Notes under the pieces: model-generated
Seen by the model: the letters and a program-made list of their open reading frames with translations, nothing else
The model's database searches: none
What the model was told of the DNA's origin: nothing
Assembly (NCBI GenBank): GCA_001804565.1
Contig: MHAC01000017.1
Span: forward strand, 1,695 to 38,765
DNA: 37,071 nucleotides
Direction of reading: 5' to 3'
Origin: Ignavibacteria bacterium GWF2_33_9
Lineage (GTDB): Bacteria; Bacteroidota; Ignavibacteria; Kapaibacteriales; UBA2268
Translations under genes and position numbers: made by a program
Shown: piece after piece, positions 5,038 through 21,960 of the stretch
How positions within the stretch are numbered: position 1 is the first letter of the stretch
Layout: each line of letters begins with the position of its first letter

Positions 5038-5122
<85 letters not shown>

Positions 5123-5211
5123 CAATGATATTTTTTAGCTTAATATTTTAAGCTGTGAATGTAGTCAATGTTATTCTGATTGTGTATCATATCATTAGGA
5201 CATATTAAACT

Positions 5212-6598: not shown

Positions 6599-6682
6599 GC
6601 CCGGGTGGTGAAATTGGCAGACACGCTACATTCAGGGTGTAGTCTACTTTTGTAGGTGCAAGTTCAAGTCTTGTCCCGGGCA
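6599..6682 (+). tRNA. tRNA-Leu(CAG)
   Basis: Acceptor GCCCGGG/CCCGGGC, anticodon stem CTACA/TGTAG with loop TTCAGGG (CAG), long variable arm, T-loop TTCAAGT. Confidence 0.93.
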
Positions 6683-6691
6683 CACAGTCAC

Positions 6692-17342: not shown

Positions 17343-18095
17343 ATGATCTCAATCAATCTGTCTGATAAAATTGCTATTGTTACAGGAGGAGCCTCTGGAA
17401 TTGGAGCCGCCATTTCTTTTAAATTAGCTGAGTGTGGTGCAAATGTCGCCATTATTGATAAAAAGGAAGTGCTGGAAGCCCAAACTATAATCAATACTAT
17501 CGAAGAACTTGGCAGAAAGTGCGTTTTTATATGTGCCGATATTTCTGATTTTCAGGCTTCTGGAAACGCAATTCTTGAGATTCTTTCTAAGTTTGGCAAG
17601 ATAGATATTTTAGTAAATAATGCCGGAATTAATAAAGATGGTGTTATTTGGAAAATGACTGAAGAACAATGGGACAATGTAATTAATATTAACCTAAAAG
17701 GTTATTTTAATTATATTAGAGCTGTCGCCCCAGTTTTTAGAGAGCAAAACTTCGGGAAAATTATTAATATTTCTTCTATAAATGGGATGAGGGGAAAATT
17801 CGGACAAGCAAATTATTCTGCTGCAAAAGCTGGAATTATTGGTCTGACCAAAACGATTGCAAAGGAATTAGGGAAATATAATGTAAATGTAAACGCTATT
17901 GCTCCGGGATTGATTGATACTGAAATGATGAAAAATGCAGATGAGAGTGTCAGAGAAAATGCAATAAAAGAAATTGTTATTGGCAGAATTGGGTTACCTG
18001 ATGAAATTGCAAATGTTGCAGCATTTTTATCATCAGATTTATCAAGACATATTACCGGCGAGATTATTAAAGTTGATGGCGGACAATATATATAG
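17343..18095 (+). CDS. SDR-family 3-hydroxyacyl dehydrogenase / FabG-like
   Basis: IVTGGASGIGAAIS, VNNAGINKDGVIW, ISSINGMRGKFGQANYSAAKAGIIG, FLSSDLSRHITGEIIKVDGGQYI. Confidence 0.9.
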   Translation: MISINLSDKIAIVTGGASGIGAAISFKLAECGANVAIIDKKEVLEAQTIINTIEELGRKCVFICADISDFQASGNAILEILSKFGKIDILVNNAGINKDGVIWKMTEEQWDNVININLKGYFNYIRAVAPVFREQNFGKIINISSINGMRGKFGQANYSAAKAGIIGLTKTIAKELGKYNVNVNAIAPGLIDTEMMKNADESVRENAIKEIVIGRIGLPDEIANVAAFLSSDLSRHITGEIIKVDGGQYI

Positions 18096-18299
18096 TTTAT
18101 AAAGTTATAAAGTTATAAAGTTATAAATAAATCAAACTTGACAAACTTTATAAACTTGATAAACTTGATAAACTTAATAAACTTGATAAACTTAATAAAC
18201 TTGATAAAATTGATAAAATTGATAAAATTGATAAACTTGATAAACTTGATGATCTTGATGATCTTGATAACTTGATAAACTTGATAACTTGATGAACTT
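18096..18299. repeat. AT-rich repeat block: left (ATAAAGTT)n arm plus about 18 units of 9-bp TAAACTTGA; 'empty' copy
   Basis: 18096-18127 ATAAAGTT tandem; 18133-18299 TAAACTTGA/TAAAATTGA/TGATCTTGA units. Perfect 12-bp inverted repeat GTTTATAAAGTT (18095-18106) / AACTTTATAAAC (18144-18155). Confidence 0.9.
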
Positions 18300-19482
18300 A
18301 AATGACATAGTAATAATATCCGGCTGCAGAACTGCAATGGGAAAATTTGGAGGAACCCTCAAAAATGTTCCTTCTTATGATTTAGGTGCACATGTAGTTA
18401 AGGAATCTATAAAACGAGCAGGACTTACAGGAGAGCAAATTGATGATGTAATTCTAGGAACATGTCGTCAGGCAGGGAATGGACCAAATCCTGCACGAAC
18501 AGCAGCTGTAAATGGCGGAGTAAAACAATCAACTCCTGCCATATCCTTAAATATGGCTTGTCCTTCAGGGATGAGAAGTGTTGTTATGGCTTCACAATCA
18601 ATTCTTTTGGGTGAATCTGAAATCGTTATTACCGGTGGTTTTGAAAATATGAGCTCAATCCCCTATCTATTGAAAAATGCACGCTGGGATGGTTTCAAAA
18701 TGGGGAATAAAGTTCTGGAAGATGGTTGGAGCGACAGTATTGACCCACTGATAAATCAAGGTATGGGTGAAACTGCCGAAAATTTATTTGATAAATATAA
18801 AATATCAAAAGAAGAACAAGATCTGTTCGCAGTTAATAGTCATATGAAGGCAGCTGATGCTCAAAAAAATGGCTGGTTCGATGAAGAAATTGCTCCGATT
18901 GAAATATCAGCTTCAAAAAAATCAAGTTCTATAATTTTCGATAAAGACGAGACGATTAGATATAATGCTAATCTGGAAGATATGGCAAAATTGAAACCGG
19001 CATTCAGAAAAAACGGAGTCGTTACTGCCGGGAATTCATGTGGTTTGAGTGATGGTGCTGTTTCAATGATTGTTACAAGTCGTCAAAAAGCAATTGAATT
19101 GAATGCTAAACCACTTTTTTCTATATTATCTTATTCTTCTATTGCAAGCGATCCTTCTATGATGGGTGAAGGTCCCGGATTTGCTATCCCTATTGCTTTG
19201 CAAAGAGCTAATCTATCTTTGAATGATATTGATGTAATTGAAATCAATGAAGCATTTGCAATCCAGGTTTTGACAAATGTTCAAACATTGAGTATTAATC
19301 TTGAAAAATTAAATATACATGGTGGTGCGATTGCATTAGGTCATCCAACAGGCATAAGTGGAGCCAGAATAATTTTGACTGCCTATTATGCACTTAAAAG
19401 ACTGAATAAAACATATGCCCTGTGTTCAATTTGTGGTGCCGGTGGTGTTAGTATGGCAATGGTAATTAAAAGAGAAAATTAA
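18292..19482 (+). CDS. Thiolase (acetyl-CoA acetyltransferase)
   Basis: ISGCRTAMGKFGG, NMACPSGMRSVVMA, NEAFAIQVL, GGAIALGHPTGISGARI, CSICGAGG. ORF track starts at TTG 18289; ATG 18292 preferred. Confidence 0.9.
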   Translation: MNLNDIVIISGCRTAMGKFGGTLKNVPSYDLGAHVVKESIKRAGLTGEQIDDVILGTCRQAGNGPNPARTAAVNGGVKQSTPAISLNMACPSGMRSVVMASQSILLGESEIVITGGFENMSSIPYLLKNARWDGFKMGNKVLEDGWSDSIDPLINQGMGETAENLFDKYKISKEEQDLFAVNSHMKAADAQKNGWFDEEIAPIEISASKKSSSIIFDKDETIRYNANLEDMAKLKPAFRKNGVVTAGNSCGLSDGAVSMIVTSRQKAIELNAKPLFSILSYSSIASDPSMMGEGPGFAIPIALQRANLSLNDIDVIEINEAFAIQVLTNVQTLSINLEKLNIHGGAIALGHPTGISGARIILTAYYALKRLNKTYALCSICGAGGVSMAMVIKREN

Positions 19483-19500: not shown

Positions 19501-20274
19501 ATGCAAAAAGTAAAATTCGAATATCAACATGAAGGAAGCGTTGCCAAAATTATTCTTGATGATGGCAAAGGAAATGTAATAGACAAAATCATGATGAATG
19601 ATTTGTTGGAATTGTTTGCAACTTTTAAAAATAACAATCATATCAAATTAATCACATTCGAAGGTGCCGGAAAGAATTTTTCTTATGGAGCAAGTGTAGA
19701 AGAACATCAAAAGGAATTAGCAAACGAAATGCTTACAGGATTTCATAATTTATTCCATGCAATGGTGGATTTACATATTCCAACTTTGGCAAAAATTTCA
19801 GGTAGTGCTCTTGGTGGTGGATTTGAATTACCTTTGTTTTGTAATTTTCTTTTTGCAGATAAAACTGCAAAAATTGGTCAACCTGAAATTTTGTTAGGTG
19901 TTTTTGCGCCACCAGCTTCGATAATGTTACCTTTAAAAATCGGGAATTCTAAAGCTGAAGAATTATTGATAACAGGAAAAGTTATTTCTGCTGAAGATGC
20001 TAAACAATTAGGTTTGATTAATGAAGTATTCGAAGACAAAGAAGAGATGGAAAATGCAGTTCAGGATTGGATACAAAAAAACATACTTGGTAAAAGTGCA
20101 TCTTCTCTACGTTATGCAACTCAAGCTGCACGTGCTTCGTTTGATTATTTTATGAAAAAAAATCTTACTGCATTCCACGAGTTATTTGTTAATAAATTAA
20201 TGGAAACTAATGATGCAAATGAAGGAATCAATTCATTTATGGAAAAAAGAAAACCTGAATGGAAGAACTGTTAA
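19501..20274 (+). CDS. dch: Cyclohexa-1,5-dienecarbonyl-CoA hydratase-like enoyl-CoA hydratase
   Basis: EGAGKNFSYGASVEEHQ, SGSALGGGFELPLFCNFLFADKTAKIGQPEILLGVFAPPAS: Dch/BadK-type motifs, in a bcr gene context. Confidence 0.8.
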   Translation: MQKVKFEYQHEGSVAKIILDDGKGNVIDKIMMNDLLELFATFKNNNHIKLITFEGAGKNFSYGASVEEHQKELANEMLTGFHNLFHAMVDLHIPTLAKISGSALGGGFELPLFCNFLFADKTAKIGQPEILLGVFAPPASIMLPLKIGNSKAEELLITGKVISAEDAKQLGLINEVFEDKEEMENAVQDWIQKNILGKSASSLRYATQAARASFDYFMKKNLTAFHELFVNKLMETNDANEGINSFMEKRKPEWKNC

Positions 20275-20315
20275 GTTTATAAAGTTTATAAAGTTCATAA
20301 AGTTATAAAGTTATA
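20275..20315. repeat. Left repeat arm ((T)TTATAAAG)n upstream of four-helix-bundle gene
   Basis: GTTTATAAAGTTTATAAAGTTCATAAAGTTATAAAGTTATA; starts directly after the dch stop. Confidence 0.85.
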
Positions 20316-20349
20316 TTGTTTATTAAGAATAAATATTAATTAAAAAAAT

Positions 20350-20694
20350 ATGATATTTGAAAAATTTGAAGATATAATAGCATGGCAAAAAGCAAAAGTC
20401 TTAACAATAGATATTTATAAAGCATTTTCTGAAAGTAAAGACTACGGATTTAAAGACCAAATTCAAAGAGCATCGGTTTTAATAATGAACAATATCACTG
20501 AAGGTTATGAAAGAAAATCAAACAATGAAGTTAAACAGTTTTTATATATTGCAAAAGGTTCTTGTGGAGAAGTACGCTCAATGTTAATGTTAGCAAAAGA
20601 ATTTAAAAAAATGAAAGAATCAGAGTATTCTAAACTATTTACTCTTTCTGAAGAAATTTCGAAAATATTTTCAGGATTAATTAAAACTTTATAA
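20350..20694 (+). CDS. Four-helix bundle protein (S23/23S rRNA intervening-sequence protein family, Avd-like)
   Basis: FEDIIAWQKAKVLTIDIYKAF, YGFKDQIQRASVLIMNNITEGYERKSNNEVKQFLYIAKGSCGEVRSMLMLA: hallmark IVP/TIGR02436-type pattern. Confidence 0.9.
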   Translation: MIFEKFEDIIAWQKAKVLTIDIYKAFSESKDYGFKDQIQRASVLIMNNITEGYERKSNNEVKQFLYIAKGSCGEVRSMLMLAKEFKKMKESEYSKLFTLSEEISKIFSGLIKTL

Positions 20695-20725
20695 CTTGAT
20701 AAAATTGATAAACTTGATAAACTAA
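20685..20725. repeat. Right repeat arm (AACTTTATAACTTGATAAAATTGATAAACTTGATAAACTA)
   Basis: Same 9-bp unit as 18133-18299. Perfect 11-bp inverted repeat GTTATAAAGTT (20302-20312) / AACTTTATAAC (20685-20695) brackets the gene; the gene's stop codon lies in this arm. Confidence 0.85.
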
Positions 20726-20730
20726 AATAT

Positions 20731-21960
20731 ATGGCAGAAATAGTAAAATTACAATCAGTGAGTCATCTGCGAAAAACAATGGATGATTATTTTGTACGCT
20801 TAAAAGATGCAACAGAAACAGGAAGCAAAAAAATAGCATGGTGTACAAGCGTTGGACCGGCGGAATTACTCTATTCAATGGGATTTGAAGTTTATTTTCC
20901 CGAGAATCACGGTGCAATGCTCGGTGCAGCGAAAGTAGCTGATAACTATATCCCAATTGCTGTTGCTCAAGGATATTCACCTGATATTTGTTCATATCTT
21001 ACAAGCGATGTCGGTGCATTTCTTGCGAATGAAACTCCTTTGCAAAAAAGTGGCTTAGCTTCTGTTCCCAAACCTGACGTATTAGTTTACAATACAAATC
21101 AATGTGGTGAAGTTCAGGATTGGTTTGAATATTATGCCAAACATTTTGATGTTCCGATATTTGGGATTATAACTCCTTTAAAAATAAATGAATTAACGGA
21201 AACGATTATTAGTGGAGTTGCTAAACAAATTGAAGAATTAGTTCCCGAATTAGAAAAAATTTCAGGTATTAAGTTTGATTTAGATAAGTTCAAAGAAACA
21301 ACCCGTTTATCTCATGATGGCTGCGTACTATGGAGACAAGTATTAGAAACTGCTCAGAATCTGCCTGCCCCAATTAACTTCTTTGATTCTGCAATACATA
21401 TGGGGCCAATTGTTGTAATGCGGGGTACTAAGTATGCTGTAGATTATTACAAAATTCTTTTGGCAGAATTGGAGGACAGAATTAAAAATAACATAGCAGC
21501 AGTTCCAACTGAGCAAATCCGAATTTATTGGGATGGAATGCCATTGTGGTATAAATTAAGCAGTATGGCTAAACTTTTTTCAGGTCTGGATACATGTGTT
21601 GTTGCTTCAACTTATTGTAATAGTTGGGTTTTTGATGATTTGGATCCTGAAAATCCGTTTTATTCTGCCGGTTTAGCTTATTGCAAATTATTCATTGTGA
21701 GATCGGATGAGGAGAAGCAAAAAGTTTTAGAAAAATTAATGGATGATTTTTCTATTGACGGAATTATTTACCACGATTCTAAAACTTGCGCAAGAAATTC
21801 GAACAATCGTTTCGGGCTTCCTGTCAGACTACAGGAAAGTACAAATATTCCATATTTGGAAATTAATGGAGATTTAAACGATTCACGTTGTTTTAGCGAA
21901 GAACAAAGCATAATAGCTATTGAAACATTTATTGATCAATTAAAAAGCAGAAAACAGTAA
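20731..21960 (+). CDS. 2-hydroxyacyl-CoA dehydratase / benzoyl-CoA reductase B/C-like (COG1775-type) Fe-S subunit, additional copy
   Basis: GSKKIAWCTSVGPAELLYSMGFEVYFPENHGAMLGA, YNTNQCGEVQDW, HDSKTCARNSNN, LEINGDLNDSRCFSEEQ pattern of HgdB/BcrB superfamily. Confidence 0.85.
   Translation: MAEIVKLQSVSHLRKTMDDYFVRLKDATETGSKKIAWCTSVGPAELLYSMGFEVYFPENHGAMLGAAKVADNYIPIAVAQGYSPDICSYLTSDVGAFLANETPLQKSGLASVPKPDVLVYNTNQCGEVQDWFEYYAKHFDVPIFGIITPLKINELTETIISGVAKQIEELVPELEKISGIKFDLDKFKETTRLSHDGCVLWRQVLETAQNLPAPINFFDSAIHMGPIVVMRGTKYAVDYYKILLAELEDRIKNNIAAVPTEQIRIYWDGMPLWYKLSSMAKLFSGLDTCVVASTYCNSWVFDDLDPENPFYSAGLAYCKLFIVRSDEEKQKVLEKLMDDFSIDGIIYHDSKTCARNSNNRFGLPVRLQESTNIPYLEINGDLNDSRCFSEEQSIIAIETFIDQLKSRKQ

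Follow-up and report, generated by a model that had tools for sequence, protein, structure and literature searches.

The window analysed here is a stretch of 37,071 nt from Ignavibacteria bacterium GWF2_33_9 (contig MHAC01000017.1, positions 1,695-38,765, forward strand), and the element in question is a small gene of the IVP (S23, four-helix-bundle) family that lies, between two inverted tandem-repeat arms, in a benzoyl-CoA reductase (bcr) operon. The gene (20350-20694, plus strand) encodes 114 amino acids and matches PF05635 (E = 8.5e-31) and TIGR02436 (E = 5.4e-30) above the curated cut-offs, with 106.8 bits against 33.8 and 103.8 against 24, respectively, so that the family assignment made in the initial annotation stands. 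Its relatives in the PDB are 2gsc and 2rld.

The left, or 5', arm (20271-20315, plus strand) was found by a repeat search and is built from about four copies of the 9-mer AAGTTTATA in tandem, one of which is an 8-mer; the arm starts where the upstream gene has its stop codon. The array spans 20268-20306 at period 9, with copy spacings of 9, 9 and 8; the unit first proposed, (TTATAAAG)n, is replaced here by one that is mainly AAGTTTATA. The right, or 3', arm (20682-20726, plus strand), found by an inverted-repeat search, is the reverse-complement 9-mer array AACTTTATAACTTGATAAAATTGATAAACTTGATAAAC, which spans 20692-20727 at the same period and is a diverged version of the left arm (AACTTGATA). 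The arms are 45 nt each, 84% complementary and 366 nt apart, and the perfect 11-bp inverted repeat that had been pointed out between them is present as GTTATAAAGTT (20302-20312) and AACTTTATAAC (20685-20695). Local alignment of one flank with the other scores 27.5, a value that none of 2,000 dinucleotide shuffles equalled (mean 9.9, maximum 17.5). As had also been noted, the TAA stop codon of the IVP gene (20692-20694) falls within the right arm, and arms and gene fill the intergenic gap, because the last base of dch upstream is 20274 and the downstream neighbour begins at 20731. In the minimum-energy fold of the element's RNA the left arm is predicted to pair with the right, with a modest z of -2.2.

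Movement of the gene together with its arms

The suggestion that this is a small dispersed mobile element is borne out by other copies of the class, in which arms and gene travel together and sister species have empty sites; the alternative of a domesticated element found no support in this analysis. It is very probable that the IVP gene and its arms are a mobile element, and it is well supported that the arms belong to it. Among non-syntenic pairs of IVP genes with more than 75% identity, arm similarity averages 24.5, compared to 9.4 for unrelated pairs, and it falls to background below 50% protein identity. Three recent pairs of copies within the genome of one relative (L065/L066, L055/L062 and L068/L069) are alike over the arms and the gene only. 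The 9-mer arms of the window also surround close relatives of the window gene at unrelated loci, namely DUF2851/Big_5, SpoU/FAD, Wzy/glycosyltransferase and YicC/gmk.

The number of IVP genes in four species of one genus (g40) is 17, 4, 8 and 11. Orthologous places in sister species of this genus were found for seven sites, four of which were aligned. The clearest is provided by L219 and L270, where an overlapping stop-start, GAGAAATGATACC, is replaced in the filled version by about 490 bp, such that the left arm supplies the new stop codon of the upstream gene and the downstream start codon is retained. At sites A, E and G the element sits in a short intergenic gap, and one sister species has an arm-like sequence at site A that may be a remnant. 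The empty sites B, E and G hold no arrays in the sister species. Given that sister species have the same sites minus both element and repeats, the two behave as one mobile unit, as shown for these other copies. Presence and absence at orthologous sites, seen in these copies, and unlinked copies in one genome are thus both on record, and the same gap is filled by different IVP subfamilies in different species. In a sister species, the IVP gene at L240 (2440-2815) is broken and, judged by the flanks in comparison with L232, lies in the opposite orientation between its arms, probably through a flip by recombination between the arms.

Arms at other IVP genes and dispersed arrays

The source genome has three IVP genes, all with inverted tandem-repeat arms and each with its own unit. 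The second, a decayed gene, has arms of (AATTGAT)n and its complement, and the third has GTGAAA repeats and their complement. The initial annotation took the lack of the window's arms at other IVP genes of the genome as counting against its reading. Taken literally this is the case, since the other two genes have different units, but both lie between inverted tandem-repeat arms of their own, so that the shared feature is architecture rather than sequence. All three repeat families occur elsewhere in the genome too, and for GTGAAA the control for genome-wide occurrence is uninformative, as reversing the pattern yields the repeat itself.

Beyond this genome, contig scans were queried with the window IVP protein alone; an alignment of 14 diverse proteins had no conserved stretch. 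With a flank complementarity score of at least 18 as the criterion, inverted arms are found in about 55% of a sample of 185 IVP genes that spans many phyla, and in 1.7% of 593 control genes. The IVP genes came from three sets (from 40 relatives, from 80 named loci and from a related genus), with 27/50 (54%), 44/94 (47%) and 30/41 (73%) passing by set. The two flanks of one IVP gene match far above mismatched flank pairs taken from different copies; that is, repeat units match within an element and differ between elements. IVP genes on plasmids of cyanobacteria and Riemerella have inverted arms in six of six cases, as judged by eye. A set of 101 clear elements has a median span of 501 bp; 73 of them have a unit period of 7, 15 a period of 8 and 4 a period of 9, and 78 have a G-rich 5' arm compared to 15 with a C-rich one. 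An independent scan of 1.45 Mb for tandem arrays returned 97 inverted pairs, 62 of which enclose exactly one IVP gene, mostly with the arrays 345-500 nt apart. Of 153 cases, 116 have both neighbours co-directional with the element, whereas only 4 have both in the opposite direction. The IVP protein is under strong purifying selection, with the ratio of nonsynonymous to synonymous substitution rates (dN/dS) mostly 0.02-0.16, higher in a few pairs, and dS near saturation in some. Two loci of unusual form were also seen: L036 (604-1842) has a tandem pair of nearly identical IVP genes with no recognised arms, and L111 (2838-3617) has an internally duplicated IVP region, 97-100% identical, with arms of near-perfect TAGTTGT units.

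Arrays of this kind are also dispersed without a gene. In contigs sampled from six IVP-rich and ten IVP-free genomes of the family, the density of intergenic arrays is 19.3 and 1.8 per 100 kb, respectively, with genome size and mobile-element load uncontrolled. Of 41 arrays, 27 are closer to the IVP arms of their own genome than to any of 20 sets of arms from elsewhere. No inverted array pairs were found in 576 kb sampled from family genomes, so that dispersed arrays are more commonly single. The window has an inverted array of its own without a gene, found from the sequence and an array scan at 18093-18300, where the operon has a short-chain dehydrogenase/reductase (SDR) gene on one side and a thiolase gene on the other. 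It is built from the 9-mer family of the window arms, runs at period 8 over 18093-18132 and at period 9 over 18132-18273, and has an arm alignment score of 19.5; it is probably a relative of the element that lacks the gene.

Proposed copying and its alternatives

The best explanation as a whole, given a probability of roughly 0.7, is a mobile IVP element with arms that is copied with the aid of IVP to new intergenic sites. The element, about 0.45 kb long, consists of a G-rich tandem-repeat arm, the IVP gene and a C-rich arm that is the reverse complement of the first, and has inserted in sense orientation between two genes of the operon. It would be transcribed together with the host operon, and its arms may pair into a stem, as in the 23S rRNA intervening sequences (IVSs) that are excised by RNase III. 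The IVP pentamer, a relative of the reverse transcriptase-binding protein Avd, would recognise the arms or the stem and help to copy the element, or one arm, to new intergenic sites, while host or trans-acting enzymes would cut and join the strands; a single array would then be the product of one arm, a remnant or a non-autonomous copy. XCC0516 (2gsc) is reported to form a pentamer of four-helix bundles, and its family is similar to Avd (PMC4990558, PMC10053308). Tentative parts of this scheme, from rather doubtful to evenly balanced, are the part played by IVP in mobility, the RNA stem and the origin of single arrays.

Several observations weigh against it. About 45% of the 185 IVP genes tested, distant PF05635 members included, have no arms above threshold. 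One genome (G002) has many 9-mer arrays and no IVP match, in a draft assembly where arrays often lie at contig ends. The 1.45 Mb scan also gave 44 direct-orientation array pairs that enclose one IVP gene, 14 of them within 510 nt, which probably arise in part from neighbouring elements and from low-complexity units that align both ways. The single clean junction, L219 versus L270, showed no recognisable duplication of the target site, and an exact empty site is unavailable for the window element because gene order around dch differs in related clusters. Among the mismatches between arms, changes that G-U pairing would tolerate are not clearly in excess (113 vs 98), so that selection for arm pairing at the RNA level finds no support here. 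No RVT_1 match was found in the source genome (G000, 94% complete) or in the IVP-rich genomes G067 and G068, which weighs against a resident reverse transcriptase. The copying step itself is inferred, with no mechanism observed.

No transposase or reverse transcriptase domain was found in the element, PF05635 being the sole match. One version of the best explanation, on balance unlikely, puts a name to the enzyme: an unrelated trans-acting system would move the gene, with IVP only assisting. This would be either a reverse transcriptase, as diversity-generating retroelements have, or a Y1 transposase of the kind in repetitive extragenic palindromic (REP) systems, the REP-associated tyrosine transposases (RAYTs). 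PF05635 is the Pfam family that resembles Avd (PMC10053308), the sense-strand bias would suit an RNA intermediate, and a Y1_Tnp match is found in 12 of 12 IVP-bearing genomes compared to 4 of 10 without IVP. The three genomes without an RVT_1 match argue against the first version, and the second is weakened by the Y1 genes themselves, which are mostly flanked by REP-type palindromes rather than tandem repeats, so that their association with IVP may only reflect mobile-element load. That Y1 transposases share arms of the IVP type was rejected on the same grounds. RAYT-like Y1 transposase genes between REP-type palindromes are seen at L323, L325, L327 and L334, as a parallel system in the same genomes. 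A phage or defence link is not indicated, given that relatives of the window IVP protein were not found in viral contigs and phages, PHROGs matches were weak (E of at least 0.05) and PADLOC gave none.

It is improbable that IVP is instead a regulator that controls RNA processing or translation of operons by binding its arms, and dispersed arrays too, where they occur in mRNAs as hairpins or at gene junctions, with movement as a side effect of recombination between repeats. Such a role would fit the position of most elements between co-directional genes, the purifying selection on the protein, the fact that 23S IVSs are RNase III substrates (PMC4990558) and the location of Xanthomonas repeats close downstream of open reading frames (ORFs; PMC4692102). 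However, the neighbouring genes are functionally unrelated, site occupancy is not conserved among sister species, and the number of IVP copies, as many as 17 in one genome and with arms that differ, resembles the expansion of an element.

Less probable again is the insertion of IVP genes into pre-existing inverted arrays, at hairpin tips, as IVSs replace rRNA tetraloops, such that the arms would belong to the target. Inverted arrays without a gene do exist, both in the window (18093-18300) and elsewhere in the 1.45 Mb scan, IVSs are located at rRNA hairpin tips (PMC4990558), and one related bcr cluster has a different IVP element at the junction that holds the gene-less array in the window. 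Against this, the empty sites B, E and G are free of arrays, close IVP relatives bring the same arms to unrelated loci, and the 576 kb sampled from family genomes gave no inverted pairs.

The locus itself bears on one further alternative. Upstream of the element, and outside it as target context, lies the dienoyl-CoA hydratase-like dch gene (19501-20274, plus strand; PF00378, with the best NCBIfam match, TIGR03189, below cut-off), and downstream, likewise outside, lies a gene for an HGD-D or benzoyl-CoA-reductase-like subunit (20731-21960, plus strand; PF06050). A search for this site within the same family returned paralogues only, and a search of the whole class gave 14 related clusters, with BcrB 65-82% identical. 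By tblastn, none of the 14 has a homologue of the window IVP at this place, so that the gene is not a member of the bcr operon, and the conservation at this locus that the initial annotation would have counted against a mobile element is not seen. That it is a functional member flanked by AT-rich repeats by chance is highly improbable: the gene is co-directional, tightly spaced and intact in reading frame, but the 14 clusters do without it, and the arms exceed both shuffles and control genes. One cluster (L351, genome G336) has an IVP gene of a different subfamily, as an independent insertion at another junction, SDR-thiolase. This 120-amino acid gene (L351, 11660-12354) has an apparent two nested inverted-repeat pairs and shares its junction with the gene-less array of the window.

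Relation to known systems

To our knowledge, genes annotated as IVP or four helix bundle protein are among the commonest orphan bacterial families, with no known role beyond a few rRNA IVSs. Heptamer repeats, or short tandemly repeated repetitive (STRR) sequences, have been on record for decades from cyanobacteria, Xanthomonas, Bacteroidota and further groups. If gene and repeats are one mobile element, then orphan IVP genes and many intergenic heptamer arrays share one explanation, and operon annotation improves. At somewhat less than even odds, IVP genes in general would be the autonomous copies of widespread bacterial mobile elements that have no known recombinase and end in self-matching tandem-repeat arms, with the STRR heptamers as one-armed by-products. 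This raises the questions of how an element with no transposase or reverse transcriptase domain spreads, and why its two arms match each other yet differ from the arms of most other elements.

The element resembles the 23S rRNA IVS in its parts and the REP-RAYT system in its logic, and is neither one. IVSs of Leptospira and Coxiella burnetii have the same protein family, an ORF in the sense direction and complementary ends, and the 428-nt Coxiella IVS has tandem heptamers ahead of the ORF (PMC4990558). Unlike an IVS, the element lies between protein genes, both of its arms are 7-9-bp tandem arrays, many copies occur per genome, and its repeats are also scattered as arrays that enclose no gene. 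The window contains no rRNA. The sampled loci were likewise rejected as IVSs: in L001-L161 only L067 has 23S sequence, which lies upstream of the IVP gene rather than around it. As in REP-RAYT, a small gene sits between inverted copies of a repeat family dispersed in the genome, but IVP has no Y1 domain match and its repeats are tandem 7-9-mers (9-mers in the window) rather than palindromes; the two systems co-occur in genomes yet stay distinct.

The arms resemble the heptamer STRRs of cyanobacteria, GGGAATC of Xanthomonas and TAACTGA of Beggiatoaceae, which have 7-bp units, are intergenic and often lie just after a gene. Xanthomonas heptamers form 70-75 inverted pairs per genome (PMC4692102), and the TAACTGA paper speculated on a repeat-binding protein as a mobile element (PMC4679880). 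The portions of the STRR papers that were read name no partner gene, whereas the partner here is IVP. XCC0516 (2gsc) is an IVP from a Xanthomonas of the heptamer-array kind. No literature link between free-standing IVP genes and tandem repeats was found in a search that left most subscription papers outside.

Avd of diversity-generating retroelements has a four-helix-bundle fold related to that of IVP (PMC10053308), and of the other features of such retroelements no reverse transcriptase, template or variable repeat was recognised, nor any RVT_1 match in the genome. Miniature inverted-repeat transposable elements (MITEs) and small insertion sequence (IS) elements are similar in size, inverted ends and intergenic insertion; unlike them, the element carries a gene for a protein that lacks a transposase domain, and it has no fixed terminal sequence and no recognised target duplication.

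Regions of Flavobacterium columnare listed as phage elements hold gmk, a four helix bundle protein gene and nadD in that order (PMC5524665, Table 5), and look like an ordinary operon that contains an IVP gene. The window also carries two tRNA genes, tRNA-Ser (cga) at 5038-5123 and tRNA-Leu (cag) at 6599-6683.
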